Positions 18,078 to 36,000 of a stretch of DNA of 64,000 nt are shown here, piece after piece. The notes below the pieces were generated by a model. That model was given only the letters and a program-made list of their open reading frames with translations. It ran no database searches and was not told where the DNA came from. The position numbers and the translations under genes were made by a program. Source of the stretch: Tersicoccus phoenicis (lineage in GTDB: Bacteria > Actinomycetota > Actinomycetes > Actinomycetales > Micrococcaceae); contig NZ_MRDE01000053.1 in the NCBI RefSeq assembly GCF_001968835.1, positions 1 through 64,000 on the forward strand. Reading direction: 5' to 3'. Within the stretch, counting starts at the first letter, position 1, and every line of letters begins with the position of its first letter.

Positions 18078-19993
18078 GCCTCCGTCTTCGCGTCCGCCAC
18101 GTGCGCACGGGCCTGTGGCACCTCCGCCGGGGTGGACCGACGGCACTGCGTCGCTGGCGACGGCGCCGACGCGCGGAGGCCGGTGGCCGCGGAAGGAGCT
18201 TCGACTTTGCCGGCGCGGAGGGCCGGTGGACCGGCCACGGTCGTCGGCGCAGACTCACGTTCGCGCCGTTCACTGCCATCACCGGGGCCGTCCGTCGCCC
18301 TGACGTGCGCGTCGGCGTCATCCTCGACGAGTTCTCCATGCGCGCGTTCGCTCCCGAGTGGACGCTCATCGCCCTGGACCCGCAGCGGTGGCGGGAACAA
18401 CTGCGTCTCCAGACGGTCGATTTTCTCTTCGTGGAAGCGGCGTGGGCCGGTAACGGCGGAGCCTGGCGGCATCTGCTCGCCGGTCCCGGGGAACCAGGGC
18501 GAGAACTGCGGGACCTCGTCGCGTGGTGCAGGGAAGCAGGGACCCCTACCGTCTTCTGGAACAAGGAAGATCCCGCGCACTACGCCGACTTCCGCTCGAC
18601 CGCTCACTTGTTCGACGTCGTCTTGACCACCGATGCGTCGATGGTCGACCGTTACCGACAGGACGCGCCGGCTCAGCAGGTTGGGGTTCTCCCGTTCGCC
18701 GCGCAGCCGACGATCCACAACCCGGTACGTCCGATGGCGGGCCACCGGAGTCGCGGCATCGCCTTTGCCGGGATGTACTTCGGGCACAAATTCCCGCAGC
18801 GGCGTCGGCATCTCGACGCCCTGCTGGCCGGGGCCATGAAATCAGCCGAGGCGACCGGTGACCAGTTGGAGATCTTTGCACGTCACGCGGACGTGGATGA
18901 TCGTTACCGCTTTCCCGAGCCGTTCAACCGGTTCGTGGTGGGATCGCTCGACTACGCTCGGATGCTCACCGCCTACCGGGCCTACCGTGTCTTCCTCAAC
19001 GTCAACACGATCGCGGACTCGCCGACGATGTGCGCGCGGCGGATGTTCGAACTGCCGGCCTCTGGGGTGCCCATGGTCACGGCTCCGAGCGACGCGATCG
19101 ATACCTTCTTCGCAGGCACCGGACTGGCCCCCGTCACGACAGCGGGCGAAGCCGCGTCCGCCGTTACCGACATTCTGCGGCGGCCGGCGGACGCCGACCG
19201 GGTTCTCCACCGGATCCAGCGCCGGATCTGGGACCACCACACGTACGCCCACCGCGCCGAAGAGGTGGTGCGCATCGCACTGCCGGGCCGACACAGACCC
19301 GTGACCTCACCCACTGTGAGTGCGGTCGTGAGTTGCTTCCGACCGCACCGGGTGGAGGATGTGCTTCGCGTGCTCGGCGCCCAGCGCGACGTCGATATGC
19401 AGGTCGTCCTGCTCACCCACGGTTTCGAGATCGACCGTGCTCACTGGACGGCCATTGCCGAGAATCACGGCCTCCGACATATCACCGTCCTGAGCGCTTC
19501 GCGAGATGTCAGCCTGGGTGAGTGCCTGAACCGGTGCGTCGAAGCTGCCGACGGGACGGTGATCGCCAAGATTGACGACGACGACGGTTACGGCCCGGAC
19601 TACCTGCACGACGCGCTGCACGCCCTCGCCTACTCCCACGCGAACGTCGTCGGGAAGCAGGCCCACTATTTGTACCTGCCGAATCGCGAGATGACCGTGC
19701 TGCGATCCCCTGAGGCCGAACACCGGTTCACTGCGCTGGTTCCGGGACCCACCATGGTGGGGGCTCGTGACATCTTCCGGCAGCATCCCTTCGCGGCGGT
19801 GACGCGAGGCGAGGACACCGGATTCCTGACCGACGTCTCGCGCGCGGGCGGTGTGATCTACTCAGCCGACAGATTCAACTACTATCGATATCGCGGTAGT
19901 ACCGATCACACGTGGCAGGTCTCAGAAGAATCGTTGCTGATCGGGAGCGAGAACGTGTTGATCGGTCATGCCGAGCAGCACTCACAGGTATAG
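18074..19993 (+). CDS. Two-domain glycosyltransferase (CgeB-like GT-B plus GT2)
   Basis: A 639-residue fusion. Residues ~70-400 resemble CgeB/DUF3880-type GT-B transferases: VGVILDEFSMRAF, VFWNKEDPAHYADF, GIAFAGMYFGHKFPQRR and MFELPASGVPMVTAPS. Residues ~410-639 are a GT2-type GT-A domain: VSAVVSCFRPHRVEDVL, then AKIDDDDGYGPDYLHDAL with the metal-binding aspartates, then RGEDTGFLTDVSRAGG as a late acidic motif. Two transferase modules in one chain suggest alternating addition of two residues, as in capsule or teichoic acid polymerases. The ATG overlaps the ATPase stop (ATGA). The N-terminal ~65 residues are strongly basic and could bind the membrane. Confidence 0.8.
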   Translation: MSLRLRVRHVRTGLWHLRRGGPTALRRWRRRRRAEAGGRGRSFDFAGAEGRWTGHGRRRRLTFAPFTAITGAVRRPDVRVGVILDEFSMRAFAPEWTLIALDPQRWREQLRLQTVDFLFVEAAWAGNGGAWRHLLAGPGEPGRELRDLVAWCREAGTPTVFWNKEDPAHYADFRSTAHLFDVVLTTDASMVDRYRQDAPAQQVGVLPFAAQPTIHNPVRPMAGHRSRGIAFAGMYFGHKFPQRRRHLDALLAGAMKSAEATGDQLEIFARHADVDDRYRFPEPFNRFVVGSLDYARMLTAYRAYRVFLNVNTIADSPTMCARRMFELPASGVPMVTAPSDAIDTFFAGTGLAPVTTAGEAASAVTDILRRPADADRVLHRIQRRIWDHHTYAHRAEEVVRIALPGRHRPVTSPTVSAVVSCFRPHRVEDVLRVLGAQRDVDMQVVLLTHGFEIDRAHWTAIAENHGLRHITVLSASRDVSLGECLNRCVEAADGTVIAKIDDDDGYGPDYLHDALHALAYSHANVVGKQAHYLYLPNREMTVLRSPEAEHRFTALVPGPTMVGARDIFRQHPFAAVTRGEDTGFLTDVSRAGGVIYSADRFNYYRYRGSTDHTWQVSEESLLIGSENVLIGHAEQHSQV

Positions 19994-20001
19994 GGGGGAA
20001 T

Positions 20002-21255
20002 GTGAATCAGACCGTAGACGTGGCCGTGGTGGGACTCGGATACATCGGGTTGCCGACGGCCGCGATCCTGGCCAGCAACGGTGTGAACGTCGTGGGCGTC
20101 GATGTGGACGCCGACACCGTTCGCGCCGTCAACGACGGGCGCGTGCCGTTCGTCGAACCCGACCTGGCGACCTATGTCGCCGGGGCGGTGACCAGCGGAA
20201 TGCTGTCGGCCACGACCGAGATGCCGCCGGCCTCCGCCTACATTCTGGCGGTTCCGACACCGTTCACGACCGATCACACGGCCGATCTGAGCTTCATCGA
20301 GGCGGCAGCGCGGGAGGTCGCTCCGCGGCTCATCGGTGGGGAATTGGTCGTGCTCGAGTCGACGTCTCCGCCCGGAGCAACGAAGCACCTCGGCGACTAC
20401 CTGATCGGGCTGCGCCCGGACCTCAGCCTCGATGGTGCCGACGGCCGACCAACCCTCCTCCTGGCCCATTGTCCCGAACGGGTGCTGCCGGGTCGCGTGA
20501 TGATCGAACTCGTCACGAACGACCGGATCGTCGGAGGACTCACACGCGAGGCCGCCGAACGCGCCGCCGAGCTGTATGCGACATTCTGCCAGGGCGAGAT
20601 ACACACAACCGACGCCACCACGGCGGAAATGAGCAAGCTCGTCGAGAACTCCTTTCGCGACGTCAACATCGCCTTCGCCAACGAACTCTCGGTGATCAGC
20701 GAGCGACTGGGCATCGACGTGTGGGAATTGATTCGATTGGCCAATCGCCACCCGCGCGTGAACATTCTGCAGCCCGGCCCAGGCGTCGGCGGGCACTGCA
20801 TCGCCGTCGACCCGTGGTTCATCGTGGCGGAAGCGCCGGAGGATGCTCGTCTGATAAGGACCGCGCGCGAGGTGAACGACGCGAAGCCCGGCTGGGTGGT
20901 CGACCGGGTTCTCCATGAGATCCAGCAGCTCCCGGCCGATGCCGAGATCGCGCTGCTCGGTCTCGCCTTCAAGGCCAACATCGACGATCTGCGCGAGTCA
21001 CCGTCGGTGGACATCACCGTCAGCGTGGCAAGGCGGCTTCCGGGCCGGCGCATCAATGTCGCCGAGCCCAACATCGATGCGCTGCCCCAGGCATTGTCGG
21101 GCTTTGACAATGTTCACCTCACGCCGGTCGACGACGCGATCACGCGCTCGGCTCTTGTCGTGGTCCTCGTCGATCACGATGAGGTACGACAGGTGAGGAG
21201 CGAGTCGTTGGTGGACAAGACAGTCGTCGACACCAAGGGTGTTCTGATCTCATGA
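20002..21255 (+). CDS. wecC: UDP-N-acetyl-D-mannosamine dehydrogenase
   Basis: Nucleotide-sugar dehydrogenase of 417 residues oxidising UDP-ManNAc to UDP-ManNAcA with two NAD+. The Rossmann motif is VVGLGYIGLPTA at 9-20. The central KLVEN motif at 212-216 and NRHPRVNILQPGPGVGGHC at 248-266, with catalytic Cys266 followed by IAVDPWFIV, are specific to the WecC branch rather than to UDP-glucose dehydrogenase. The C-terminal third binds the UDP sugar (GLAFKANIDDLRESPS). I chose GTG 20002, which a GGGGGG-type site precedes. The enzyme's substrate would come from the wecB gene at 28397. It overlaps the next gene by 4 bases. Confidence 0.9.
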   Translation: MNQTVDVAVVGLGYIGLPTAAILASNGVNVVGVDVDADTVRAVNDGRVPFVEPDLATYVAGAVTSGMLSATTEMPPASAYILAVPTPFTTDHTADLSFIEAAAREVAPRLIGGELVVLESTSPPGATKHLGDYLIGLRPDLSLDGADGRPTLLLAHCPERVLPGRVMIELVTNDRIVGGLTREAAERAAELYATFCQGEIHTTDATTAEMSKLVENSFRDVNIAFANELSVISERLGIDVWELIRLANRHPRVNILQPGPGVGGHCIAVDPWFIVAEAPEDARLIRTAREVNDAKPGWVVDRVLHEIQQLPADAEIALLGLAFKANIDDLRESPSVDITVSVARRLPGRRINVAEPNIDALPQALSGFDNVHLTPVDDAITRSALVVVLVDHDEVRQVRSESLVDKTVVDTKGVLIS

Positions 21256-21971
21256 GCATCGAGACCATGAGCGGCGCGACGACGCCGCGGGTGGCTCGCG
21301 GCATCCAGGTGACGGCGGACGTCGTTCTTCCCGATGCGCCCGTGCTGGTGCTCTGCGGCGGCGAGCCCAGCCCTGTTGCGTTCGCGTTGGCGTCCGAGCG
21401 CGACCTTCTGCTGGTGGACAGTGTCGCTCGGTGGGACAGCCTGGTCAGCCGCGATTTCGCGGTCCTGGTCACGACGGGCGGGCGCGACCTGGCTGCGGAG
21501 CTGATCCGGACGCGCCGATTCAACGATGTGCCCGCCGTACTGTGGAGCGTCGACGGCGGACTCGGTGACGCGTTCGACCTGGTCAGCGCGGTACAGCTCC
21601 CCACCGGGCATGCGGTCGTCGGCCTCATTGCGGGGCAGCGCGGTTGTGCTGCCGTCAGCGGGCCGTATGACGGGCCGATCGTCGACCCCGGAAGTTTCCG
21701 CGACGGCCTGAGCGTGCAGCACGACGTCACGCTCGCCGGTGCGGTCGCTCAGCAGGCGCGGCTGGCCCGGGAACTCGCAGACCTCCAGGGTCGGCACCTC
21801 TCTCTACTCCGTGCCCTCGACACTCGGCCGGTGGCGTCCACCGCGGCGGCGGGACCCGATCCGCGACTGGAGGCGGAACTCGGCATACTTCGCCGTCGCT
21901 ATGACGCGCTGTCCTCGTCCCGGCTGGGGCGCCTGACCCTGCGGTACTGGAGGTACAAGCGTGGGCACTGA
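21252..21971 (+). CDS. Unrecognised protein in the glycan operon (239 aa)
   Basis: I do not recognise a family. Residues ~25-145 look like an alternating alpha/beta domain: PVLVLCGGEPSPVAFALA, RDLLLVDSVARW, FAVLVTTGGRD, VPAVLWSVDGG and HAVVGLIAGQRG suggest a Rossmann-like core. A helical, Gln/Leu/Arg-rich segment (155-180) is probably a coiled coil, and a C-terminal basic helix SSRLGRLTLRYWRYKRGH resembles the membrane-binding tails of some glycosyltransferases. There is no signal peptide, so it is cytosolic. Its ATG overlaps wecC (ATGA) and its end overlaps the next GT2 gene by 11 bases, so it is firmly embedded in the operon and likely acts on the same polymer. Confidence 0.65.
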   Translation: MSIETMSGATTPRVARGIQVTADVVLPDAPVLVLCGGEPSPVAFALASERDLLLVDSVARWDSLVSRDFAVLVTTGGRDLAAELIRTRRFNDVPAVLWSVDGGLGDAFDLVSAVQLPTGHAVVGLIAGQRGCAAVSGPYDGPIVDPGSFRDGLSVQHDVTLAGAVAQQARLARELADLQGRHLSLLRALDTRPVASTAAAGPDPRLEAELGILRRRYDALSSSRLGRLTLRYWRYKRGH

Positions 21972-24270
21972 ATCGGAGTTCTCACTTGGCTCGGAGTCGG
22001 GCCGGTCCGCGATCGATGACCGTGACGAGCGCGCGGCACAGATTCGGCGCCTCGTGGGGGAGCTGGGCCAAGCTGGCCCCGGTGAGGAGCCAGTGTCCGG
22101 ACCCGAACTGCTTTCAGGCGTGTCGGTCGTCATCCCGTCCGCACGGGATGCGGCCGATATCGCCGGCTGCCTCGCGTCGCTCGCGGACCAGGACCTTTCC
22201 TCGGCCCAGTTCGAGGTCATCGTGGTCATCAACGGAACGTCCCCGGCCACCTTCGAGCACGTGCAGCAGTATCGCTCCGTATACCCGGATCTGCGGCTCA
22301 AGCTGATCTATCAGGAACGAGGGAGCGCGGGGGCGGCCCGAAACACCGGCATCGCGGCGGCACGGCACCAGTACCTCACCTTCGTGGACGACGACGACCG
22401 CGTGGGACCGCGCTTCCTGTCCACCCTCATGAGCCGTGCCGCTGTGGACACGGTCGTCATCGCGCCGATCATCAACGTCGATCCCAGTGGGGGCGAGGAT
22501 GCGAACAACCCGCTGAACCTCCAGATCACGGCGCGAGCGGCGAGGCCGTTCCCCCTCGTCTCGGCGGTCACGCTCTTGGGCTTCAACGCCTGCAAGCTGA
22601 TCCCCACCGCCGTCGCCCGGCAGCATCGCTATGCGGAACACCTGCGAAGCGGTGAGGACATCTGCTACATGGCGGCCGTGGCCCTCAGCCGGGAGTTCAC
22701 CGGCGTCGTCGGTGACATTGCGAGCGAGTCCGCCTACTTCCGGCAGCTCAGCGCCGGCTCCGTCTCGCGCCAGCACCAGGACTTCGACTTCGCGGTGCGC
22801 CAGCGGCTCGACGTCATCATCGACCTGGAACAGCGGCGTACGTGGACCGGGGCGGGAGCCGACGCCATGCTTCTCTCGCTCATCCGCGCCCAGGTGGGTT
22901 TTATCAGGCGGTTCCTGCAGGCAAATCCCGGGGAACGGAGGCATGTCGTCGACGCCGTGGTCGCGACGGGCATCCGGGACTTCCCTTGGGGCGAGGTGAA
23001 CGCTGGTCTGGCGAAGCACCTGGCCATCAGCTACTGCTTCGTTCCGTTCGAGGACACGAGCGCCACTGTCGCCGCCAAGGCAATCGCTGAACGCGGCAGA
23101 GTGGTGGACGTCATCCTCAACGACATGAGCTCGGTGCGGCGCACCGATCCGAGCCTGCGGACGATCGCGGGCCGTTACATCGCCACGGAGACCGTCATCG
23201 ACGCTCCGGCCTCTTTCGCCGGATGGCCGGCGATTCGGCAGTTCGTGGAGAAAGGGCTAGCAGAAGCGAATCGCCTCGCCAGCAAGGCGGGCGGCTACGA
23301 GACGCTCTACAGCCGGGTGCTGTGGGCAGGATCGCACTTCTTGGCGGGCCTGTTCAAGGCCGAGCACCCCGACGTCGTATGGACGGCGGAGTTCTCCGAT
23401 CCGCTGTCCTTCGGCGCCGATGGGGCGCCGCGACCCGGCACGATGCCCAAGGACGTTCTGCGGAAGCGGTTCTCCTCAGCGATCAAGGCAGCGGGATTCA
23501 CGCCCCCCCGCGAAGACAGTCTGTTCACGTGGTGTGAGTACCTGGCCTATGCGCTGGCCGACGAGCTGATCTTCACGAACGAGAACCAGCTCGACTTCAT
23601 GGTCTCGTACATCGAGGATCCGTCGCTGCGCACACGAGTGCGGGAACGGGCGGTCGTCAGGCCCCACCCGACACCGCCGGCTCACGGGTATACGGTCACC
23701 GAGTCCTCGTACGTGCTGTCCCCACGAGTGGTGAACATCGGGTACTTCGGTGCGTTCTACGACAATCGCGGCCTCGGCGAAGTGCTCACCGCTCTGGCCA
23801 ACTCCTCCGCATCCGTCCGGAGGCACACCCGCCTGCATGTCTTCAGCAAGCAACCGGATCAACTGCGGACCGCGGCAGCGGCGATGGGCATCGACGATGT
23901 CGTGATCAGCAACTCTTACCGACCGTACTTGGAGTTCCTCAATCTCTGCCGACGGTTCGACGTGCTTCTGGTCAATGACGTGACGACCGGCGCGGAATTG
24001 CCCATCAACCCGTTCCTGCCGTCCAAGTACTCGGACTACGCAGGGTCCGGCCGGCCCGTGTGGGGACTTGTGGACGAGGGCAGCCCCCTCAGTCGAAAGC
24101 CGCTGGCCTTCCGTTCGGAGTCCGGGAACGCGGTGGCTGCACGCGCAGTTCTCGCGGAAATCACTCGGTCCTTCTTGGCGGGAGAACTCCGGCACGCGGA
24201 GGACCCGGCCGGCGACGGTACCGACCACGATGGCCACTCCGGTCTGCTCGTTTCGACGGCCGGACCCTGA
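21961..24270 (+). CDS. Two-domain glycosyltransferase (GT2 plus GT-B-like)
   Basis: A 769-residue protein. The GT2 domain spans ~52-340: SGVSVVIPSARDAADI, GSAGAARNTGIAAARHQYLT and FVDDDDRVGP, with the metal-binding aspartates at 143-146, then EHLRSGEDICYMAAV. Residues ~400-769 resemble a GT-B transferase donor half: VVNIGYFGAFYDNRGLGEVL, LHVFSKQPDQL, VVISNSYRPYLEFLNLCRRF and PSKYSDYAGSGRPVWGL, which places the donor-binding region near PSKYSDY. A GT2 plus GT-B pair in one chain mirrors the gene at 18074 in opposite order. It is cytosolic, with an acidic leader (1-50). The GTG start overlaps the previous gene by 11 bases. Confidence 0.78.
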   Translation: MGTESEFSLGSESGRSAIDDRDERAAQIRRLVGELGQAGPGEEPVSGPELLSGVSVVIPSARDAADIAGCLASLADQDLSSAQFEVIVVINGTSPATFEHVQQYRSVYPDLRLKLIYQERGSAGAARNTGIAAARHQYLTFVDDDDRVGPRFLSTLMSRAAVDTVVIAPIINVDPSGGEDANNPLNLQITARAARPFPLVSAVTLLGFNACKLIPTAVARQHRYAEHLRSGEDICYMAAVALSREFTGVVGDIASESAYFRQLSAGSVSRQHQDFDFAVRQRLDVIIDLEQRRTWTGAGADAMLLSLIRAQVGFIRRFLQANPGERRHVVDAVVATGIRDFPWGEVNAGLAKHLAISYCFVPFEDTSATVAAKAIAERGRVVDVILNDMSSVRRTDPSLRTIAGRYIATETVIDAPASFAGWPAIRQFVEKGLAEANRLASKAGGYETLYSRVLWAGSHFLAGLFKAEHPDVVWTAEFSDPLSFGADGAPRPGTMPKDVLRKRFSSAIKAAGFTPPREDSLFTWCEYLAYALADELIFTNENQLDFMVSYIEDPSLRTRVRERAVVRPHPTPPAHGYTVTESSYVLSPRVVNIGYFGAFYDNRGLGEVLTALANSSASVRRHTRLHVFSKQPDQLRTAAAAMGIDDVVISNSYRPYLEFLNLCRRFDVLLVNDVTTGAELPINPFLPSKYSDYAGSGRPVWGLVDEGSPLSRKPLAFRSESGNAVAARAVLAEITRSFLAGELRHAEDPAGDGTDHDGHSGLLVSTAGP

Positions 24271-24310: not shown

Positions 24311-24754
24311 GTGAAACACAGCGCATCCTCTCCCGTCCGTACCGAGTCTGGTTTCGTCTTCCACTGGGATGTGCCACGACAGGCGGTTGACCTCGTGCTC
24401 GACTACCGGCGACCGGTGCAGCTGAAGTCGGCGGTGCTGATCGTGCATGTCCAGGCACCGAGTGGAGATGACATCACTGCCTCGTGCCCGCAGGTGTTCT
24501 GGTCGGCGGCACTCGACGAGCACTACGTCTACGCGCCTCCGGCCAGTGGCGTGGGTCCGGTCACCGTAGGTCGCCTCCATTCCGATGAGCCGGTCAGTGG
24601 CCTGCAGATCACCCCGCTGTCCTGGCCGGGCCGGGAACCGCTGCACGGCGACGTCTTCGGCCGGGCATGGCTGCGGCTCGGCCCCGCTCTCGGCCGCTCG
24701 GACGGGCCGCAGATCCACGTGATGTCGGCACTGCCCGAAGGAGGAGAACGATGA
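24311..24754 (+). CDS. Unrecognised small protein in the glycan operon
   Basis: A 147-residue protein with no family I recognise. It is rich in beta-forming runs (SGFVFHWDVPRQAVDLVLDY, LKSAVLIVHVQAPSG, PVSGLQITPLSWPG), which suggests a beta-sandwich, perhaps carbohydrate-binding or accessory. It has no signal peptide or membrane segment. I favour the GTG at 24311, which has AAAGG five to ten bases upstream. A TTG at 24272, two bases after the preceding stop, would add 13 residues. The stop overlaps the next start (ATGA), so it is cotranscribed and coupled with the dual GT2 gene, whose partner it may be. Confidence 0.55.
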   Translation: MKHSASSPVRTESGFVFHWDVPRQAVDLVLDYRRPVQLKSAVLIVHVQAPSGDDITASCPQVFWSAALDEHYVYAPPASGVGPVTVGRLHSDEPVSGLQITPLSWPGREPLHGDVFGRAWLRLGPALGRSDGPQIHVMSALPEGGER

Positions 24755-26907
24755 CGTCATCCATCGACATGTCCGTGGTGATCGGCTTCCGCGACTGGGG
24801 GATCCGTCGCCTCGAACTGGCCGTGCGGTCGATCCAGCGCTCCTTCGGTCCGCTCTCCGGTGAGGTGATCGTCTCGGACTACGGGTCGACCGAACACGCG
24901 GAGACCCAGCGGCGTCTGGAGTCTCTCGGTGCGCGCTACGTGTACACCGACGTCGACGGCCCGTGGTCACGATCACGCGCTCTCAACGCGGGATTCGCCG
25001 TGTCCCGGGGACGGGTTCTCGTGTCCACCGACGCCGACATGATCTTCAGTCCTGAGGCCATGGCGGTCATCGGACAGATGTCCCTCGCTGACCCGACTCT
25101 CGCCCTGCTGCTGCAGTGTCGAGACTTGCCCGAGCACTGGTCTGACACGGACGTACCGGACGACGACCAGCCCTGGCAGGTCTTCGAACGGGAATCGCGA
25201 CTCCGTCCGCGGTGGGGTATGGGCGGGATGATGGCCGCAACCAGAGAGGCCTTCGCGCGCGTCCGCGGCTTCGACGAGCGGATGCACACGTATGGCGGGG
25301 AGGACATCGATTTCGCCAATCGGGTCAAACGATCCGGCCACCGCCTGTTGTGGATCGATGATCCCCGAGTGCGGATGTATCACATGTGGCACGCTCCCAC
25401 CCGGGCGGGCGTCGTCCAGACCCCCGAAGGCGCCGCGGCCGTCGAAGCGAACAAGAAGATCGTGTACGAGGACAAGACGTTCGCCCGGAATGTGCCGGTG
25501 TGGCAGTACCGGTTACCGGACGCGCCCCCGCTGGTCACCGTCGCGATCTGCACCTACAACCGAGCGGAGTTCTTGCGCGAAAGCATCCAGTCGGTGCTGG
25601 CACAGACCCTGCAGGATTTCGAGATCATCGTCGTGGACGACGGTTCCACCGACCACACCCGCGAGGTGGTCGAGCAATTCGGTGACCCACGGATCCGCTA
25701 CTTCTACCAGCAACAAGGTGGCATATCGGCTGCCCGCAACAAGGCCGCCGATGAAGCGCGAGGGTTCTACACCGCGGTGCACGACGACGACGACCTGATG
25801 ACGCCGTGGCGGCTCGAACGCCACTTCCAGGCAATTCATTCGGGTGCCCACGGGTCCTTCGGCTCGTTCGTCAATTTCGATGACCACACCGGTGCGATGG
25901 AGATCGTCGCCTCGAAGAAGCTGAACAGTGGAACCATCTTCGAGACTGGCGGAGCACCCGGCCACGGCACCTGGCTGGTGCAGACCGACATCGTCCGCCG
26001 ACTGAGGTACGACGAATCGCTGACGAGCGGTGTCGACAACAACCTCGCCCTGCGCATGATCCGGTCAGGCGTCGTGATGAACCACGCTGGCGAGATCATG
26101 ATGCTCCGGCGCACCCATGCCGGCCGCATCACCGTTACGGACGGTGCTGCTCAGGGGAACGCCGCCAGGCAGACGAACTTGATGTTCACCTACCGCACCA
26201 CGAAGTGGGGCGGCGACAAGATGTTGGCGGAGCGCAAAGACGACTACGTGCCGGTACGTGGCATGGACGACCTGGAGGCCCTTCTTCCTTACCTACCTGA
26301 TCACCTCGTGCGACGGACCGTCAGTGTGATGGTGACCGGAGAGGGCGAGCTGCCGTGGGATTTCATCGACCGGATGAGCTCCTGGTTGATCGAACGCGAT
26401 GAGAACGGGACCCAACGGAGGCTATGGGGAGAGCTGGAGGACGCCACGCTCGCCGACATGCTCGTGCTACGAGCCAGCGGCGCTCAGTGTGTGATCAGCA
26501 CGACACGCCGTCTCCCGGTCAGTCCGGCGGACCAGTCGGCCCTCGCCCAGGAATCCGCGATCCGGACCTCTGCAGTCGCACCCGAAGTCACCGCGCTCCA
26601 GAACGTCCTTGAGGAATATGCGACGGAGGTGGGTGCGACGAAGAGGCAGGTGCTCGGTTGGATCGAACTGGAGAGCGTCGTTGACCGACCCGCGCAGACG
26701 ATCGACCACCGCGTCCTGCGGTTCGACAGCGATGGGAGGGAACGCATCTTCTGCCTGATGCGATTCGCGGACCTACGAGAAGCCGATCGACTGCAGGCGG
26801 AGCAGGGGTGGGCCGTGGTCAACCTGTTGCTCGCCGAAGAGCTGGAAACCGCGTTGCACGACATGACCACCGAACGCGAATTCGATCTGCAGGAGCTGGC
26901 ACGATGA
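24751..26907 (+). CDS. Glycosyltransferase with two GT2 domains
   Basis: A 718-residue protein with two GT-A domains. The first (7-215) is like the N-terminal unit of chondroitin-type polymerases: VVIGFRDWGIRRLELAVRSI, SRSRALNAGF, VSTDADMIFS with DAD at 94-96, and GFDERMHTYGGEDIDFANRV, the galactosyltransferase-type DxxDxxxE block. The second (260-480) is classic GT2: VTVAICTYNRAEFLRESIQS, VVDDGSTDHT with DDG at 296-298, and HDDDDLM at 344-350. The last ~220 residues are unassigned. The tandem arrangement suggests one enzyme that alternates two sugars and hence makes a disaccharide-repeat polymer. A strong GGAGGAG site precedes the ATG, and the stop overlaps the next gene. Confidence 0.85.
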   Translation: MTSSIDMSVVIGFRDWGIRRLELAVRSIQRSFGPLSGEVIVSDYGSTEHAETQRRLESLGARYVYTDVDGPWSRSRALNAGFAVSRGRVLVSTDADMIFSPEAMAVIGQMSLADPTLALLLQCRDLPEHWSDTDVPDDDQPWQVFERESRLRPRWGMGGMMAATREAFARVRGFDERMHTYGGEDIDFANRVKRSGHRLLWIDDPRVRMYHMWHAPTRAGVVQTPEGAAAVEANKKIVYEDKTFARNVPVWQYRLPDAPPLVTVAICTYNRAEFLRESIQSVLAQTLQDFEIIVVDDGSTDHTREVVEQFGDPRIRYFYQQQGGISAARNKAADEARGFYTAVHDDDDLMTPWRLERHFQAIHSGAHGSFGSFVNFDDHTGAMEIVASKKLNSGTIFETGGAPGHGTWLVQTDIVRRLRYDESLTSGVDNNLALRMIRSGVVMNHAGEIMMLRRTHAGRITVTDGAAQGNAARQTNLMFTYRTTKWGGDKMLAERKDDYVPVRGMDDLEALLPYLPDHLVRRTVSVMVTGEGELPWDFIDRMSSWLIERDENGTQRRLWGELEDATLADMLVLRASGAQCVISTTRRLPVSPADQSALAQESAIRTSAVAPEVTALQNVLEEYATEVGATKRQVLGWIELESVVDRPAQTIDHRVLRFDSDGRERIFCLMRFADLREADRLQAEQGWAVVNLLLAEELETALHDMTTEREFDLQELAR

Positions 26908-27587: not shown

Positions 27588-28400
27588 TCAGGCCGTCGTC
27601 GACATGACCGCGCAGGTGTCTCGCGCCCAGGTGGAGGAGCCGGCGTTCCGGGCTCCTGACCACACGACCGCGCCATCCATCGTCTGCGCCACTGCCTCCA
27701 CCTCGCTTCGCCACATAGCCCGGGGAAGCAGGGCTTTGGTGGGGGAAGCGGCGGCGTGGAACTGCGGCCAGATGAACGGATAAATCCGCTTGGCCGGATC
27801 CACCCGTTGGGCCTCGGCGCGTACGGAGTCGAGATGTGCCCGCCAAGCGGTGAACGAGCTGCGGGTGGTGTACAGGGTCGGGAAGAAGGCATCCTGCAGC
27901 GGAGCCAGCGCCTTCGCGAGATCCCGATGCGCCGGGTCGGTGTTGCCCAGGACGCCGTAGACGCCCACGATGCGATTGGGGAAGACCTGCCGGGTCCAGG
28001 TCAGGAAGCGCTTCAGCTTGTCGTACCGGCGCTCGGCCACGTGCCTCGCGCCCTTCAGATAGAGTGTCTCGAAGTCGAGGATCACCGGGCCGCCACGGTC
28101 GACGGCACGACGCAGCATGGATTGGTAAGCGGCGCGATCGGGCAGTGCCAACTCCTGCTTCGCTGATGTCTGGCCCGTCAACGCCATGACCCTACTCTCG
28201 TACACCGTGTACGACGTCGAGGTGCGGCAGGCGCTCAGGTCGCTGTCTCGGTAGTACGTGTTGTCGAACAGCCGGAAGTGCGCGCCGGCCGAACGCGGCC
28301 CTCGTGAAGAATCCCCGGGGCGGCCCGTGGAGGCGGAACAACCGCTCAGGGCGACTCCCGTGACCAGCAGGATCACGGCCAGCGATCGGGGTGCGGTCAC
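27588..28400 (-). CDS. Lipoprotein with TIM-barrel-like domain
   Basis: A 270-residue predicted lipoprotein. The signal sequence ends in the lipobox LSGC with Cys21, so it is anchored outside the membrane. The mature part alternates strands and helices as in glycoside-hydrolase TIM barrels: FRLFDNTYYRDSDLSACRT, GGPVILDFETLYLKGARH with an Asp-Phe-Glu triad, RIVGVYGVLG, DAFFPTLYTT, RIYPFIWPQFH and MDGAVVWSG. This layout recalls hyaluronidase-like and related barrels, but I cannot name the family. Asp-Glu in LDFETL are candidate acids. Its GTG overlaps the wecB stop, so it is translated with wecB. A glycan-trimming or polymer-releasing enzyme of the same locus is a reasonable inference. Confidence 0.6.
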   Translation of the reverse strand: MTAPRSLAVILLVTGVALSGCSASTGRPGDSSRGPRSAGAHFRLFDNTYYRDSDLSACRTSTSYTVYESRVMALTGQTSAKQELALPDRAAYQSMLRRAVDRGGPVILDFETLYLKGARHVAERRYDKLKRFLTWTRQVFPNRIVGVYGVLGNTDPAHRDLAKALAPLQDAFFPTLYTTRSSFTAWRAHLDSVRAEAQRVDPAKRIYPFIWPQFHAAASPTKALLPRAMWRSEVEAVAQTMDGAVVWSGARNAGSSTWARDTCAVMSTTA

Positions 28401-29644
28401 GACGCGGCCAACAGTCCCGATCCGTCATCGAGGGCGGCGCCCGGCGCGAGAACCAGGGAATCGGACGCCATGGTGGCCGCTGACGCGCCTACCAGGGCGG
28501 CCTTCGGCTGGAAGTCGGGCACCCGGGTACCTCGGCCGAGCAGGTGCAGCAACGCAGCCACGGACCGCTCGGCTGCCATGCCGTCGCCGTAAGGGTTCAC
28601 CGCCTGCGCCATGGCCGTATAGTGCACCGGGTCGTGGAGGAGAAGCGACACCTCGTTGACGATGGCTCGCTCATCGGTCCCGATCAGACGCACGGTCCCC
28701 GCGGTGACCGCCTCGGGACGTTCAGTGTTCTCCCGCATCACCAGGACCGGCTTGCCCAAGCTCGGTGCCTCCTCCTGGACGCCCCCCGAGTCAGTGAGGA
28801 CCAGGTGGGCCACAGAAAGCATGCGGGTGAACTCCGCGTAGCCCAACGGCTCCGTGATGATGACATTGTCGAGGCCGGTGACGTGAGGACGAATAGCCTG
28901 CCGGACAGCGGGGTTCTTGTGCATGGGTAGAACGATGACGACGTCCGGTTCGGTGCGCGCAATCCTGGCCAGTGCACGGCCGATGCCGCGCATCGTCTCC
29001 CCGTGGTTCTCCCGGCGGTGCGTGGTGACGAGGATGCCGCGGCGACCGGACGCAGCGAGCTGTTCCAGCCTCGGCTCCGTGAAGGCCACCTGGTGGCCGG
29101 CCGTGCTCAGGAGTGCGTCGATGACGGTGTTGCCGGTGACGGCGATCTGCCGAGGGTCGACGCCCTCCCGGATGAGATTCTCCCGGCTGGTATACGTGGG
29201 GGCGAGGTGCAGGGACGAGATCTGTCCGGTGATCCGGCGGTTCGCTTCCTCCGGAAAGGGCGAGGCCAGGTCGCCGCTGCGAAGCCCGGCTTCGACGTGT
29301 ACTACGGGGATCTGCCGCTGGAATGCAGCCAGGGCTGCTGCCGTGGACGTCGTCGTGTCACCGTGCACGAGGACCACGTCGGGCCGCGCGGTAGCGAACA
29401 GGAGATCCAGACCGGTCAGAGTCCGCGCCATGATGCCCGCCAGGGTCTGGCTGGGCTGGATAATATTCAGGTCGTGCGCGGGCGTGATGGAGAACAACTT
29501 GAGGACCTGATCAAGCATCTCGCGATGTTGACCGGTCACCGTGACTACGCACTCGAGGTCGTCAGCAGCCTCGATCGCCTTGATGATCGGAGCCATCTTG
29601 ATGGCCTCCGGACGCGTGCCAAAGACGGGCATGACCGTGAACAT
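28397..29644 (-). CDS. wecB: UDP-N-acetylglucosamine 2-epimerase
   Basis: Non-hydrolysing epimerase of 415 residues that interconverts UDP-GlcNAc and UDP-ManNAc, providing the substrate for wecC at 20002. Diagnostic blocks are VFGTRPEAIK at 7-16, VHGDTTTS at 93-100 with Asp96, HVEAGLRSGD at 116-125 with Glu118, and FPEEANRR at 130-137 with Glu132. A later DSGGVQEEAPSLGKPVLVMR holds the UDP. The C-terminus is ~40 residues longer than usual, Ala/Leu-rich and unassigned. I chose the ATG at 29644, which has GGGGG just upstream. It overlaps the lipoprotein gene. The A/T-rich run before the gene (29650-29700) may carry its promoter. Confidence 0.92.
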   Translation of the reverse strand: MFTVMPVFGTRPEAIKMAPIIKAIEAADDLECVVTVTGQHREMLDQVLKLFSITPAHDLNIIQPSQTLAGIMARTLTGLDLLFATARPDVVLVHGDTTTSTAAALAAFQRQIPVVHVEAGLRSGDLASPFPEEANRRITGQISSLHLAPTYTSRENLIREGVDPRQIAVTGNTVIDALLSTAGHQVAFTEPRLEQLAASGRRGILVTTHRRENHGETMRGIGRALARIARTEPDVVIVLPMHKNPAVRQAIRPHVTGLDNVIITEPLGYAEFTRMLSVAHLVLTDSGGVQEEAPSLGKPVLVMRENTERPEAVTAGTVRLIGTDERAIVNEVSLLLHDPVHYTAMAQAVNPYGDGMAAERSVAALLHLLGRGTRVPDFQPKAALVGASAATMASDSLVLAPGAALDDGSGLLAAS

Positions 29645-29730
29645 GGTTCCCCCAGAAACCGAGAAAATTTTCGTCGATTTCAACGTAGTGCACTCTTCCC
29701 GTTTTCGCCACCTGACCTGCCATGATGGTC

Positions 29731-30297
29731 TCAGGAGCAAGGCGGTGCGAGGACGGCTTCGACCAGCCCTCCGCTCTCGGAGACGAATCGCTCGAACCAC
29801 TGCCACGGATTCAGCTGCGGTTCGCTGACCACCATGCTGATCCGCGCGTCGGTGCAGGAACCGATCAGCATCCGCGCGCGCGTCGCGTGGTATCGGGATG
29901 TCACCACGGTGACCGAGGTCCAGTGGTGCTGAGCGATCAGCTTGCCGATCGCTCGCGCCTCGCCGCCAGTGTCATCGGTAACGGGTCGGAAGCAGATCTC
30001 CCCGGTGGGCTGAGGACTGCGCCGACATCGCGCGTCGGCGCTTGCGTTGCCGAGAGTGTCCGTGTGCGAAAGGACGAGGATCGGCATGCCGGTCGCGGCG
30101 CGGACGTCATCGGCGACAGGCAACCGCTCCCGGCTGGCGCCACCCAACATGACCACGGCATCGGTATGCGGAGCGAAACCCGACTCGACGCCGACGAAGA
30201 GCGCGAGACAGGCCACCAGCCACACCAGGAAGGTGACCACCACAACGCAGGTGCCCCGAAGCACGAGCCGACGGGGACGACAGTTGGCTGAGGGCAT
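29731..30297 (-). CDS. YdcF-family (DUF218) membrane protein
   Basis: A 188-residue protein of the DUF218/YdcF-ElyC-SanA family. One N-terminal transmembrane helix (~15-35) is followed by the DUF218 domain: DAVVMLGGASRERLPVADD, MPILVLSHTDTLGN, then GGEARAIGKL and VTVVTSRYHATRARM. Family members act at the membrane in envelope homeostasis or lipid-carrier recycling, but the reaction is not established. Two cysteines in the loop region (ARC...GEIC) are typical of actinobacterial members. It lies upstream of wecB on the same strand, about 90 bases away, so it probably belongs to the minus-strand glycan group. Confidence 0.8.
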   Translation of the reverse strand: MPSANCRPRRLVLRGTCVVVVTFLVWLVACLALFVGVESGFAPHTDAVVMLGGASRERLPVADDVRAATGMPILVLSHTDTLGNASADARCRRSPQPTGEICFRPVTDDTGGEARAIGKLIAQHHWTSVTVVTSRYHATRARMLIGSCTDARISMVVSEPQLNPWQWFERFVSESGGLVEAVLAPPCS

Positions 30298-30425
30298 CCG
30301 ATCAGTCTAAGGATTTTCGGCGCTGCAGCGCCCGGGTCCCGTGGGGTCCGTCTCGCCGTCACCGGGCGGTAGTGGACAGCGGACAATCGCGAAAATCTTG
30401 GCGAACCTTGGTGCAGGTCCGGTGA

Positions 30426-31601
30426 TCAAGTGACAACAACCGGGTGGTAGGGAGCGAGCAGCGAACGAACCTGTTGAAACTCTACCCAGTCCAATTCGGT
30501 GTATGGACGCACACCGGCGCTCGCAAGATTCCGTGCCAGCCCAGCCGCGAGATCGGCAGGAAAATTCAGGTAGAGCGTCGTATCTGCGCGTTCGTAGAAC
30601 GTGAGGTGCAACCTGCTGGAACTGGCCAAGATGTGATCTGGAATGCCTGAGACCAACTCGTCCGCCAAATCTGGGCCACCGTGGCGAGCAACATAGATAG
30701 AGAGGAAGTCGAGAGCGAAGTTCTGCCCGAAGGAAAAGTGTGGAGTAGAGGGTTTAGTGACGTCCGGAGTAGTGATATCCCATCCGAAGCGTGCAGAAAC
30801 CACTCGAGCGAGGACCTTCTTTCGGTAGAGCTTTTCTTCACCGGGGCTCGCGAGGGATCGTAAAGATGGTGCGATGAGGTCGGGGTGGTAGTGCGCCAGG
30901 ACGATCAGCGTGCCCACCTCAGTCAGGCCAGCCACGTATGGGGCGTTGGTCAGTCCAGCCATGTGAAAAGGGGGGAACGTCTTGTTGGCTGCGGCCGCCG
31001 GGGTCTGTCGAAGATTGTCCGGACTTGCCTCGAGGATGCTCCCGAATGTGTGGTACTTGGCACGTGAATGGGCAGCAGCGAGAATTGCTCCGCATCCCAT
31101 GAAGGACCAGGAGTTGTTCTTGAGCGGCGTCTCCAACAGGTTTGTCGAGACAGTGAGCGTATCGAAATGCTGGAAGAATTCTCGCTCTCGACCGAACCTT
31201 CCCCCGAAGTCCATCGAAACGAGCCTTGTGTCACGAGGCATGAGAGAGTACGCTGCCAAGGAGTCGAAGCCTCCGCTGAAACTCAGAAGAATGCCTTTTC
31301 GCTTTGACGACTGCATTGCCCTTCGCCCGGAAGTCTTCACTTCGGCGAGGGTGAACTTTTCGATTGCTCTCGCGGTTTCGTCCGAGGGGCTGAGATCCAA
31401 TTCGATCCGCTCGAACGCTCTTCCGCACAACGTTGAAAGTGCGATGGCGATCGAGTCTTGCGTGAGTCCTATCGGCTGGCTGAACTCAAACCAGAGAGGG
31501 TAGGATCCGTCCTGCGGGCCGCCACGGAGTTCGCAGTTCACATCAATCCGTGTTGCGTCCGTTACGCGAAGATCACCAAAACGTACGCTGGCTCTGTCCA
31601 T
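30426..31601 (-). CDS. PP-loop ATP-pyrophosphatase-like protein, low G+C
   Basis: A 391-residue protein with a clear PP-loop, LSFSGGFDSLAAYS, in which SGGFDS at 109-114 matches SGGxDS of N-type ATP pyrophosphatases (QueC, asparagine synthetase, N-acetyl-sugar amidotransferases). Following strands VSMDFGGRFGRE and NSWSFMGCGAILAAAHSRAK are compatible with an adenylating domain. The first ~95 residues are an unassigned N-terminal domain. Such enzymes adenylate a carboxylate or carbonyl and then add nitrogen or sulfur; amidating a uronic acid sugar would fit this locus but is speculation. The ATG has AGAGGG upstream. Base composition stands out: 30 of 60 bases in 30721-30780 and 31 of 60 in 31261-31320 are G+C, against about 70% around it, suggesting recent acquisition. 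Confidence 0.72.
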   Translation of the reverse strand: MDRASVRFGDLRVTDATRIDVNCELRGGPQDGSYPLWFEFSQPIGLTQDSIAIALSTLCGRAFERIELDLSPSDETARAIEKFTLAEVKTSGRRAMQSSKRKGILLSFSGGFDSLAAYSLMPRDTRLVSMDFGGRFGREREFFQHFDTLTVSTNLLETPLKNNSWSFMGCGAILAAAHSRAKYHTFGSILEASPDNLRQTPAAAANKTFPPFHMAGLTNAPYVAGLTEVGTLIVLAHYHPDLIAPSLRSLASPGEEKLYRKKVLARVVSARFGWDITTPDVTKPSTPHFSFGQNFALDFLSIYVARHGGPDLADELVSGIPDHILASSSRLHLTFYERADTTLYLNFPADLAAGLARNLASAGVRPYTELDWVEFQQVRSLLAPYHPVVVT

Positions 31602-31687
31602 GATCCCTCTTTTTTTGCTGTTCCGGATTGCTCCACCGTGACGAGGGCGAGCCAGCGCGGCCACGGGTGACAGAGCTGGCCGCCGAA

Positions 31688-31723
31688 TGCAACGGTGTCT
31701 GAGGTTTGGCGAACACCGTTGCA
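31688..31723 (-). terminator. Terminator after ugd
   Basis: A perfect 11-bp inverted repeat, TGCAACGGTGT at 31688-31698 with ACACCGTTGCA at 31713-31723, has a 14-base loop. It starts 14 bases past the ugd stop on the minus strand and precedes the PP-loop gene, which would therefore need its own promoter in 31602-31687. Confidence 0.65.
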
Positions 31724-31736
31724 CCCGGGGATCTCG

Positions 31737-33086
31737 TCAGGGGCGGCCGAGTGCCCGGTAGGTCCAGCCGGCGGCCCGCCAGGTGGTGGGGTCGAGCACG
31801 TTGCGCCCGTCCAGGATCCGGCGGGCACGGACCAGGGTCGCCGTCTTCTCCGGGTCCAGGCCGGTGTAATCCCCCCATTCGGTCAGCAGGAGGACGGCGT
31901 CAGCGCCGGCGAGCGCGAACTGCAGGTCTGGCTCGTACCGCAGGTCGGGATATCGCTGTTCGGCGTTGGTGAGGGCTTGAGGGTCGGTGACGACGACGTT
32001 GCCGCCCTGGAGCTGGATCTGGGCGGCGACGTTCAGGGCGGGGGAGTCCCGCACGTCGTCGCTCTCGGGTTTGAAGGCGGCACCGAGAACGGTGATGGTC
32101 TTGCCCAGGAACGAGCCGTCGCACACCTCCCGGGCCAGTTCGACCATCCGGATCCGGCGGCGCATGTTGATGGAATCGACCTCCCGCAGGAACGTCAGGG
32201 CCTGGTCCGCGCCGAGCTCCCCGGCCCGGGCCATGAAGGCCCGGATGTCCTTGGGCAGGCACCCGCCGCCGAAGCCGAGCCCGGCGTTGAGGAACTTCCG
32301 GCCGATCCGGTCGTCCAGGCCGATCGCGTCGGCCAGCTCGGTGACGTCCGCGCCGGCCGCTTCGCACAGTTCGGCCATCGCGTTGATGAAGGAGATCTTC
32401 GTGGCCAGAAACGAGTTGGCGGCGGTCTTGACCAGCTCGGCGGTGGGGTAGTCGGTGACCAGCCGGGCGGACCCACCGGCCAGCGGCGCGGCGTAGATCT
32501 CGTCCAGCACGGCCGCGGTGGTCTCCCGGTGCTCGTCGTCGGGGATGCCGTAGACGAGCCGGTCGGGGTGCAGGGTGTCGGTGACGGCGTGGCCTTCGCG
32601 CAGGAACTCGGGGTTCCACACCAGCCGCGCTTCGGGCACGGTGCGGTGCAGGTCCTCGGCCAGGCGCCCGGCGGTGCCGACCGGGACCGTCGACTTGCCG
32701 ATGATCAGGTCCCCGGGGGCCAGGTACGCGGCGGCGGACGCGAAGGCGGCGTCGACGTACCGCAGGTCGGCGGCGTTCTCACCCTTGCGCTGCGGGGTGC
32801 CCACGCACACGAAGTGCGCCCGGGCCCCGGCGATCTGCTCCAGGTCGGTGGTGAACCGCAGACTCCCGGCGCCGGCGCCGGTACCGGCACCGTGGGCGGT
32901 GCAGCCTGCCTGGATGTCGGCGAGCAGCTCGTTCAGTCCCGGCTCGTAGAACGGTGCCGCCGCGGACTGCAGGGCGGCGATCTTCCGCTCGTCCACGTCG
33001 ACCCCGACCACGTCGTGTCCCAGCCGGGCCATGCACGCCGCGTGCACCACCCCCAGATACCCGCACCCGATCACCGAGATCTTCAC
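31737..33086 (-). CDS. ugd: UDP-glucose 6-dehydrogenase
   Basis: A 449-residue enzyme oxidising UDP-glucose to UDP-glucuronate with two NAD+. The N-terminal Rossmann motif is VIGCGYLGVVHA at 5-16, and VGTPQ at 95-99 is the family's cofactor block. Active-site residues are NPEFLREG at 158-165 with Glu161, Lys220 and Asn224 in ELVKTAANSF, and the thiol nucleophile Cys276 in GFGGGCLPKD. A short Gly/Ala insertion (GAGTGAGAG near 66-74) is unusual but outside the active site. The GTG at 33086 was chosen because a GGAGAGGGG site precedes it. UDP-GlcA could be a second uronate in the polymer made by this locus. The gene ends in a hairpin at 31688-31723. Confidence 0.93.
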   Translation of the reverse strand: MKISVIGCGYLGVVHAACMARLGHDVVGVDVDERKIAALQSAAAPFYEPGLNELLADIQAGCTAHGAGTGAGAGSLRFTTDLEQIAGARAHFVCVGTPQRKGENAADLRYVDAAFASAAAYLAPGDLIIGKSTVPVGTAGRLAEDLHRTVPEARLVWNPEFLREGHAVTDTLHPDRLVYGIPDDEHRETTAAVLDEIYAAPLAGGSARLVTDYPTAELVKTAANSFLATKISFINAMAELCEAAGADVTELADAIGLDDRIGRKFLNAGLGFGGGCLPKDIRAFMARAGELGADQALTFLREVDSINMRRRIRMVELAREVCDGSFLGKTITVLGAAFKPESDDVRDSPALNVAAQIQLQGGNVVVTDPQALTNAEQRYPDLRYEPDLQFALAGADAVLLLTEWGDYTGLDPEKTATLVRARRILDGRNVLDPTTWRAAGWTYRALGRP

Positions 33087-33223
33087 AGCCTGTCCCCTCT
33101 CCTTCTGCAAGCACCACAGTAGAGGCGCCTCGCCTCCGTTCCCGAATCGGCGTGGCGCTCGGAGGCGCCTTCCATAGGAGGAAGGCAGTGCTACGGGGTC
33201 GCCGCACTCCTTCCAGGCAGGCG

Positions 33224-33259
33224 GCAGGGGCCGGACGCATCGTTGCGTCCGGCCCCTGC
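33224..33259 (-). terminator. Strong hairpin after fdhA
   Basis: A perfect 16-bp stem, GCAGGGGCCGGACGCA at 33224-33239 and its complement at 33244-33259, closes a 4-base TCGT loop. It lies 43 bases past the fdhA stop on the minus strand and separates fdhA from ugd. Confidence 0.8.
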
Positions 33260-33301
33260 TGTCCCCCCTTGTTCCCCCGATTTCCCCCGTCCGACGCCGC
33301 G

Positions 33302-34516
33302 TCAGGCGGCGACGGACCCATGCGGGTCGATGACGTACTTCTTGGCCGCGCCCGAATCGAAGTCGGCGTAGGCCTGCGGCGCCTCGTCCAGGCTGATCAC
33401 CGTGGCGTTGACCGCCTTGGCGATCTGCACCCGGTCGTGCAGGATCGCCTGCATCAGCCCGCGGTGGTATTTCATCACCGGGCACTGACCCGTGGTGAAG
33501 GACAGGGACTTCGCCCATCCGGTGCCCAGGGACAGGGACAGCGAGCCCTTCTGCGCCGCCTCGTCGATGCCGCCCGGGTCGCCGGTGACGTACAGGCCCG
33601 GGATGCCCAGCGCCCCGCCGGCGGCCGTGACGTCCATCAGCGTGTTCAGCACGGTGGCCGGCGCCTCCTGCGCGCCGCGACCGTGGCCCTTCGCCTCGAA
33701 CCCGACGGCGTCGACGCCGCAGTCCACCTCGTTCACCCCGAGGATCTGCTCGATCTGGTCGACCGGATCACCCTCGGAGAGGTCGATCGTCTCGCAACCG
33801 AAGCTGCGGGCCTGTTCCAGCCGCTGCGCGTTCATGTCGCCGACGATGACGACGGCGGCCCCGAGCAGCTGCGCACTCGTGGCTGCGGCCAACCCGACCG
33901 GTCCGGCCCCGGCCACGTAGACGGTGGAGCCGACCCCGACGCCGGCGGTCACCGCGCCGTGGAACCCGGTGGGGAAGATGTCCGAGAGCATGGTCAGGTC
34001 CAGGATCTTCTCCATCGCCTGGTCCTTGTCCGGGAACTTCAGCAGGTTCCAGTCCGCGTAGGGCACCATCACGTAGTCGGCCTGGCCGCCGACCCAGCCG
34101 CCCATGTCCACGTACCCGTAGGCGCTGCCGGGCCGATCCGGGTTGACGTTCTGGCAGATGCCGGTCTTGCGTTCCTTGCAGTTGCGGCAGCGGCCGCACG
34201 CGATGTTGAACGGCACCGAGCAGAGGTCGCCGACCTTGATGTACTCGACGCCGGGCCCCGTCTCGATCACCTCACCGGTGATCTCGTGGCCGAGGACCAG
34301 GTTCGGCGGGGCGGTGGTCCGGCCGCGGACCATGTGCTGGTCCGAGCCGCAGATGTTGGTGGTCACGACCTTCAGGATCGCCCCGTGCGGCAGTTTCCTG
34401 CCCACGTTCGCCGGGTTGACGCCCGGACCGTCCTTCAGTTCCCACGTGGGGTAGTCGATGTCGTGGACCTCGACCTTCCCCGGGCTCATGTAGCTGACTC
34501 CGCGGTTGTCCGCCAT
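33302..34516 (-). CDS. fdhA: Glutathione-independent formaldehyde dehydrogenase
   Basis: Zinc-dependent medium-chain dehydrogenase of 404 residues. The family oxidises formaldehyde with tightly bound NAD+ and needs no glutathione (the Pseudomonas FdhA type). Catalytic zinc ligands are Cys56 in NICGSDQH and His77-Glu78 in GHEITGEV. The structural zinc cysteines are 107, 110, 113 and 121. The VPFNIACGRCRNC block and the long insert GSAYGYVDMGGWVGGQADYV are diagnostic for this subfamily against ordinary alcohol dehydrogenases. The NAD site is VAGAGPVGLAAA near 197-208. The ATG at 34516 has a GGAGA site. It is a single-gene unit with a strong terminator. Mycothiol-dependent detoxification would be the usual actinomycete route, so this may be an additional one. 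Confidence 0.88.
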   Translation of the reverse strand: MADNRGVSYMSPGKVEVHDIDYPTWELKDGPGVNPANVGRKLPHGAILKVVTTNICGSDQHMVRGRTTAPPNLVLGHEITGEVIETGPGVEYIKVGDLCSVPFNIACGRCRNCKERKTGICQNVNPDRPGSAYGYVDMGGWVGGQADYVMVPYADWNLLKFPDKDQAMEKILDLTMLSDIFPTGFHGAVTAGVGVGSTVYVAGAGPVGLAAATSAQLLGAAVVIVGDMNAQRLEQARSFGCETIDLSEGDPVDQIEQILGVNEVDCGVDAVGFEAKGHGRGAQEAPATVLNTLMDVTAAGGALGIPGLYVTGDPGGIDEAAQKGSLSLSLGTGWAKSLSFTTGQCPVMKYHRGLMQAILHDRVQIAKAVNATVISLDEAPQAYADFDSGAAKKYVIDPHGSVAA

Positions 34517-35997: not shown

Positions 35998-36000
35998 CGC

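Follow-up and report, generated by a model that had tools for sequence, protein, structure and literature searches.

The window (the whole stretch of DNA that was analyzed, 64,000 nucleotides) carries a PP-loop ATP-pyrophosphatase-like gene whose product belongs to an undescribed, patchily distributed protein family, and members of this family are linked to the genes for WecB, WecC, and a large glycosyltransferase. We propose, with a probability of roughly 0.5, that this product, as a member of a new PP-loop family, is an ATP-dependent uronamide synthetase, which would amidate the uronate ManNAcA (N-acetylmannosaminuronic acid). The main support for the amidation reading is gene context. Catalysis and product are proposed, as are the nitrogen donor and the substrate, which may be a UDP-sugar or the polymer. 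We rate the finding as a new enzyme family that would carry out a known type of reaction and not as a new kind of system.

The reading frame and the composition of the gene were analyzed in the window (Table 1). A preliminary description, made from the letters alone, had placed a gene with an SGGFDS loop here; it proved to be a real open reading frame of 391 residues that ends where that description put its end. The frame is open further 5', up to a GTG at 31724, and the homologue alignments begin near the ATG at 31601. The AGAGGG site that had been given to the gene as its own was found 3 bases 5' of this ATG. In the product, the loop stands in the context LLSFSGGFDS after a hydrophobic strand, the arrangement that marks a PP-loop ATP pyrophosphatase. 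An AlphaFold model of the protein, built from a two-sequence alignment, had a mean pLDDT of 37, too low for a judgment on the Rossmann-like nucleotide-binding fold.

The G+C content of the gene was 56.7%, against 69.2% for the 64-kb window. A scan of the whole window showed that the 1176-base stretch of lowest G+C (56.4%, start 30457) lies almost wholly on the gene, and that all 1176-base stretches below 60% start within 30042-30734. Sixty-base pieces with at most 31 G+C made up 14.2% of those inside the gene and 0.3% of those elsewhere in the window, which fits the two samples of 30 and 31 G+C of 60 reported earlier. The GC3 of the gene was 0.638, or 0.630 when the longer frame is taken; this was the lowest value of the 45 called genes longer than 450 bases (mean 0.852, sd 0.064), and that of the other listed glycan genes of the window was 0.75-0.92. 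A lower GC3 (0.483) was seen for a frame at 26915-27436, but this frame shares bases with the called gene 26808-27542 (0.79) and is probably not the frame that is read. The neighborhood had been put at about 70% G+C, which is right for the Ugd side (71%) but too high for YdcF and WecB (65-67%).

The gene had also been thought to stand alone between a terminator and a YdcF-like gene. The YdcF-like neighbor is there; however, Ugd, YdcF, and WecB all share the minus strand of the PP-loop gene, so it does not clearly stand alone. The 139-base stretch upstream of the gene (31602-31740) folds with a z of -3.3 and holds a strong hairpin (31688-31723), but the hairpin has no T-run and a terminator scan of the gap found nothing, so that the terminator is not confirmed.

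Table 1. Features of the window; the roles of the neighbor genes are putative and follow from their families, and the gene calls come from a simple open reading frame caller, which set some starts too far upstream and put some genes on the wrong strand
Feature	Coordinates	Strand	Basis or remark
PP-loop ATP-pyrophosphatase-like gene, 391 aa	30426..31601	-	SGGFDS; homologue alignment; lowest GC3 among called genes
SGGFDS PP-loop codons, residues 109-114	31260..31277	-	direct reading; alignment
AGAGGG, ribosome-binding-like site	31605..31610	-	direct reading; 3 bases before ATG
Perfect 11-base inverted repeat	31688..31723		between Ugd and PP-loop gene; no T-run
Ugd, UDP-glucose dehydrogenase-like	31737..33518	-	true start near 33.1 kb, given a domain that begins at residue 146
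DUF218/YdcF-like gene	29731..30297	-	E 1.1e-7; downstream neighbor of PP-loop gene
WecB, UDP-GlcNAc 2-epimerase	28397..29806	-	PF02350, E 2.8e-116; true start probably further in
GT2 glycosyltransferase, two GT2 stretches	24667..26907	+	homologous to genes in L025, L026, L028
Large glycosyltransferase, GT2 domain plus long part without Pfam match	21961..24270	+	partner gene of PP-loop clade
239-aa gene without assigned family	21252..21971	+	30% to a gene in L022
WecC-type UDP-ManNAc dehydrogenase	19912..21255	+	true start near 20.0 kb; 54% to Aeromonas WecC-like gene
Glycosyltransferase	18074..19993	+	PF13524
ABC exporter ATPase (Wzt-like)	17181..18077	+	family match
ABC-2 exporter permease (Wzm-like)	16295..17194	+	family match
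LytR-CpsA-Psr (LCP) ligase, wall attachment	11404..12465	+	PF03816, E 2.6e-39

The protein was then compared with family models and sequence collections. No match was found in Pfam up to E 10, and NCBIfam gave only a weak NAD synthase match over the PP-loop (E 0.29). PDB searches by sequence and by profile found no family match. Two profile matches to nucleoproteins (E 0.7-0.8) were rejected as chance, as was a vigilin match of the DUF6395 homologue described below (E 0.96). No relative of the protein was found by tblastn against plasmids and phages or in three viral-contig pattern scans (2, 199, and 41 pattern matches), and blastn against E. coli genomes also found nothing. About 85,000 species genomes were scanned with a peptide pattern, a method that picks up only close relatives; it returned one relative, from Aeromonas bestiarum, with 47% identity. 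Single-protein searches found the gene in one of three genomes of the genus, with no match in the other two, and phylum-wide in its own genome only (1/396).

With a two-row profile, the family was detected in 10 of 295 genomes, from 8 of 32 genera, of the taxonomic family of the source, and at the level of Gammaproteobacteria in the Aeromonas alone (1/369). In the order, a 13-row profile had matches in 5 of 327 genomes, namely two known ones, two new ones (G1230 and G1179), and one with a DUF6395 protein (G1072, weak). All 16 aligned rows, among them that of the DUF6395 homologue, have SGG-DS, E228, K257, and K261 without variation. The DNA ligase of the window is closest to plasmid copies from actinobacteria (49-53%), so the Aeromonas member very likely places the family in a second phylum.

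In a tree of the 16 rows, nine members formed a clade with support 99/99: the window gene and those of Aeromonas, L037, L038, and L019-L023 (L, locus; G, genome). Midpoint rooting was used; branches are long for L038, L026, and L039, and the letter composition of the Aeromonas row is unusual. A broken copy (L028:8230-9293, plus strand) is the sole copy of carrier genome G865, and a second, decayed copy in L021 (L021:5676-5993 and L021:9019-9309, minus strand) lies beside the intact one; the gene has therefore been gained and lost within glycan loci. The earlier suggestion was of a recent acquisition. The atypical composition and the patchy distribution fit acquisition, but no donor was identified and the core relatives are 54-58% identical, which does not bear out the word recent. 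In addition, the relatives were lower in G+C than their own fetched stretches in 10 of 12 rows and higher in 2, some rows including extra bases. Since the relatives tend to low G+C, this property is partly a family trait. In L022 (6373-11195), two divergent PP-loop paralogues lie on either side of a transposase gene with rve and Mu-transposase C domains. The member L038:7047-8717, shortly after the large glycosyltransferase gene, has an N-terminal extension of about 150 residues that by eye looks like a membrane anchor and a coiled coil.

The linkage of the family to uronate genes was examined. A WecC-type UDP-ManNAc dehydrogenase was present in 10 of 10 carrier genomes, one of which (G865) has only the broken PP-loop copy, against 148 of 295 genomes family-wide, where 148 may be a lower bound because only the best candidates of a first look were scored. 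Presence was called at E <= 1e-120 with a five-row WecC profile, in which the window gene 19912 is one of four rows that come from carriers in the counted set (window, G877, G993, and G882). This profile gave E 4e-220 or better to its own rows and 6e-54 or worse to three Ugd-type genes. The chance of 10 in 10 is about 0.0009 if the genomes are taken as independent, which they are not, though 8 genera are involved. The distance between WecC and the PP-loop gene was at most 33 kb in seven of the ten carriers (3.5 to 32 kb) and 549 kb in G808, and in G836 and G964 the two genes are on different contigs. WecB was found in the fetched stretches of the window, L002, L019, L020, L021, L022, L026, and L028. 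The stretches of L023, L024, L025, L027, L037, L038, and L039 gave no WecB.

The large glycosyltransferase was present in the fetched stretch of 8 of the 9 members of the well-supported clade; the sole miss was L020 (genome G964), where about 133 kb from two contigs were read. It had no match in the stretches of L024, L026, L027, and L028, and only a weak one in L025 (27% over 217). The PP-loop gene overlaps the large glycosyltransferase gene by 4 bases in L002 and by 1 base in L022, and in L019 a PP-loop paralogue begins directly after the glycosyltransferase stop. The large glycosyltransferase also occurs without a PP-loop gene, on a Paracoccus fistulariae plasmid directly after wecB and wecC, and on a Rossellomorea plasmid with a nucleotide sugar dehydrogenase, an ABC exporter, and an LCP protein. 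The large transferase therefore accompanies the uronate, with the PP-loop gene as an optional extra. The context of the family points to one substrate, ManNAcA.

The capsule locus of Aeromonas bestiarum (L002) was compared with the window. Its run holds genes for a Poly_export protein, a glycosyltransferase, WecB (taken from a separate annotation because the scripted call, like the first call in L027, was on the wrong strand), WecC, the large transferase, the PP-loop protein, a glycosyltransferase, and two Capsule_synth proteins (KpsC/KpsS-type). Apart from L002:264-1487, a gene without Pfam match at the start of the run, the PP-loop gene is the only gene of the run that is unaccounted for, and uronate modification is the simplest role left for it. 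For another strain of the species (K296), the literature lists a study of the O-polysaccharide. In the window, the order PP-loop gene, YdcF, WecB is the same as in L020, and the Ugd is closest to the dehydrogenases of L025 and L028, not to WecC. The preliminary description had suggested that the enzyme might amidate a uronate of the polymer, without saying which uronate. This idea is partly supported: both the window group and Aeromonas have a gene context that speaks for a polymer with a uronate. This uronate is likely to be ManNAcA, with WecB and WecC both in the window, and amidation is the step that we infer.

According to the proposed mechanism, WecB and WecC would make ManNAcA, which would bind to the PP-loop enzyme either as UDP-ManNAcA or as a residue already built into the nascent chain. 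At the SGGFDS loop, its C6 carboxylate would be adenylated by ATP and pyrophosphate would leave; ammonia would then displace AMP to give the ManNAcA amide, a neutral sugar. The large glycosyltransferase would build the uronate into the polymer, the ABC exporter would move the polymer out, and the LCP ligase would attach it to the wall. Micrococcus luteus has a ManNAcA-glucose wall polymer (PMC3005890). Tannerella forsythia makes ManNAcA amide, and its cluster holds wecB, wecC, and asnB (PMC6120980, PMC4030854), although the authors assign asnB to a different step, that of an acetamidino group. No ammonia-supplying partner was recognized among the neighbors except a glutaminase beside L027. There (L027:8840-11895), this glutaminase, which has a cyclic-nucleotide-binding domain and is a possible ammonia source, is encoded after a distant family member and on its strand.

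The same WecC and glycosyltransferase context would also suit a reaction in which the adenylated uronate is joined to another amine (an amino acid, ethanolamine, or an aminopolyol) to form a substituted uronamide, and a C. jejuni capsule contains amidated glucuronic acid (PMC11800379). However, no gene for the synthesis of an amine partner was recognized among the neighbors compared, and we consider this reaction unlikely. Other members raise the question of whether the enzyme serves a uronate polymer but adenylates another acid or works at a different step, such as chain termination or the activation of an acyl group. In L025, the member is near a PL8 polysaccharide lyase gene, and Ugd instead of WecC is in the fetched stretch, WecC being 32 kb away; the substrate may therefore vary across the family. 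The members of L024 and L027 are in no obvious glycan locus, and the apparent membrane anchor of L038 would also fit a different step. Against this stands the presence of WecC in every carrier genome, and a different acid or step seems rather improbable. Heparinase II/III proteins are encoded near the L026 member and near the DUF6395 gene of L039.

The family has a homologue in the same order (L039:8945-10468), which matched DUF6395 (PF19932), labelled a domain of unknown function, with E 3.9e-47. An earlier search for DUF6395 in the genome of the window and in 210 genomes of the Aeromonas class gave no match, but its controls gave none either, so this silence carries no weight. In hhalign this protein aligned with the PP-loop family at P 1.3e-15 (probability 98.6%). 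The two have SGG-DS, an LTEVGT stretch, K257, and K261 in common, but the DUF6395 protein has the cysteines SC-CLRC-KC (SCLLGSYERPCLRCDKCLRKE) at the site where the family has SLASPGEEK-YRK. The PF19932 cut-off (25 bits) was not reached: the PP-loop protein had no match, and 4 of 13 members matched at E up to 1, the best at 0.0049. As judged from the alignments, the DUF6395 tie of the family is firm, and DUF6395 is probably the C-terminal part of a glycan-locus PP-loop enzyme. In the L039 protein itself, an SGGTDS PP-loop precedes the DUF6395 domain and there is a cysteine motif like that of QueC; heparinase II/III-like and LCP genes lie in the same stretch. No mention of DUF6395 was found in the open PMC literature.

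The hhalign comparison with known enzymes covered the QueC and WbuX families. Fifteen family members aligned with 20 QueC loci at P 0.0013 (38 columns, probability 18.7%). The aligned columns take in the PP-loop and the family's MDFGGRFxRE, which stands opposite FDYGQRHxxE of QueC. With eight WbuX-type loci, one of which (L071) is below the cut-off of that family, the value was P 0.022 over 63 columns, and controls against WecB, WecC, and the large glycosyltransferase gave P 0.5, 0.38, and 0.52. The cysteine stretch of the L039 DUF6395 protein matched the QueC zinc site at P 0.0045 (19 columns), a value narrowly better than that of the same protein against WbuX, which was P 0.008 over the PP-loop. 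The preliminary description had named a profile comparison as the check on its reading; in the present comparison with QueC and WbuX, the QueC tie is only suggestive. Because a true DUF6395 homologue carries a QueC-like cysteine motif, we take the family to consist of PP-loop enzymes that are zinc-less, related to DUF6395, and weakly linked to QueC.

AsnB/WbpS amidotransferases consist of glutaminase and Asn_synthase domains. The PP-loop protein has no Pfam match to either domain up to E 10, which rules out an AsnB identity. It is also shorter, with 391 residues against 605 for T. forsythia AsnB. The likeness is in the reaction proposed for the protein, from uronate to uronamide within a surface glycan locus, which is that of the WbpS/WbqG/AsnB-type synthetases (PMC7468200, PMC6025236). 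Uronamide formation requires AsnB-related WbpS-type genes in P. gingivalis and also in E. coli O121, where the gene is called WbqG; for P. aeruginosa, WbpS has been proposed (PMC7468200), and an H. pullorum wbpS mutant fits the role (PMC6025236).

The NASATs (WbpG, PseA, and WbuX; TIGR03573) are, like the present protein, PP-loop proteins of surface-sugar loci; they are thought to act on an N-acetyl group and are marked by a tetracysteine, CXXCXn[GN]XCXXC (PMC10607449). If the family did the same, the N-acetyl group would be the target and the product would be an acetamidino sugar. The tetracysteine is absent from the family alignment, there was no TIGR03573 match, and hhalign gave only the P of 0.022 mentioned above; the missing motif rules out a NASAT identity, and acetamidino chemistry is improbable.

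QueC converts a carboxylate to an amide and then to a nitrile with ATP, using ammonia as nitrogen donor (PMC13329287, PMC13060819), and its signatures are YxQxHxxE and the zinc site C(x)8CxxCxxC (PMC13329287). The family resembles it in SGGxDS, in the MDFGGRFxRE/FDYGQRHxxE match, and possibly in carboxylate-to-amide chemistry, but has about 100 extra residues before the loop and its home in glycan loci. In place of YxQxHxxE, the family has FGGRFxRE, in which only the E is kept. The zinc site is absent from the PP-loop protein and the 14 other family rows, with a variant in the DUF6395 homologue. The PF06508 (QueC) cut-off was not reached either; the PP-loop protein had no match and one of 13 members matched at E 0.29. 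Since both motifs are absent, the PP-loop protein is not a queuosine enzyme. The preliminary description had also allowed for an earlier role in modified-base synthesis; a weak QueC-like signal around the PP-loop is all that was recovered of this, and given the repeated linkage to glycan genes and the occurrence in only 10 of 295 genomes, a queuosine/7-deazaguanine or tRNA enzyme that is in the locus by chance is very improbable.

If the family amidates ManNAcA, the negative charge of the uronate would be removed from a wall or capsule polymer, which could alter recognition by antibodies and phages. The uronamide synthetases in the literature cited here are AsnB-type, and a glutaminase-free family would be separate from them. 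Polymer chemistry would become predictable from sequence where the gene now matches no family model, a glycan role would be added to QueC-like scaffolds, and DUF6395 becomes testable. More tentatively, the zinc-less, glutaminase-free, DUF6395/QueC-related family may be a further, undescribed route to amide sugars, one that neutralizes ManNAcA in Gram-negative capsules and in the wall polymers that high-G+C bacteria make, has spread horizontally, and is paired with a dedicated large glycosyltransferase; this broader picture is somewhat less likely to be right than wrong. At the far edge, some members might make a nitrile sugar, which is conceivable because QueC carries its amide on to the nitrile. 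No co-mention of PP-loop, uronic acid, amidotransferase, and polysaccharide was found in the open PMC literature, and the term QueC-like was absent among the literature matches listed. The main text of a 2026 survey of the QueC family contains neither 'polysaccharide' nor 'glycan' (PMC13329287).

Two further features of the window were noted. The neighboring genes 9601-10392 and 10531-11325 share a single GT92/GT2-like gene of L025 as their closest match. Beyond the glycan genes, at 34891-37305, genes for a LigD-type primase-polymerase and an ATP-dependent DNA ligase adjoin on opposite strands.
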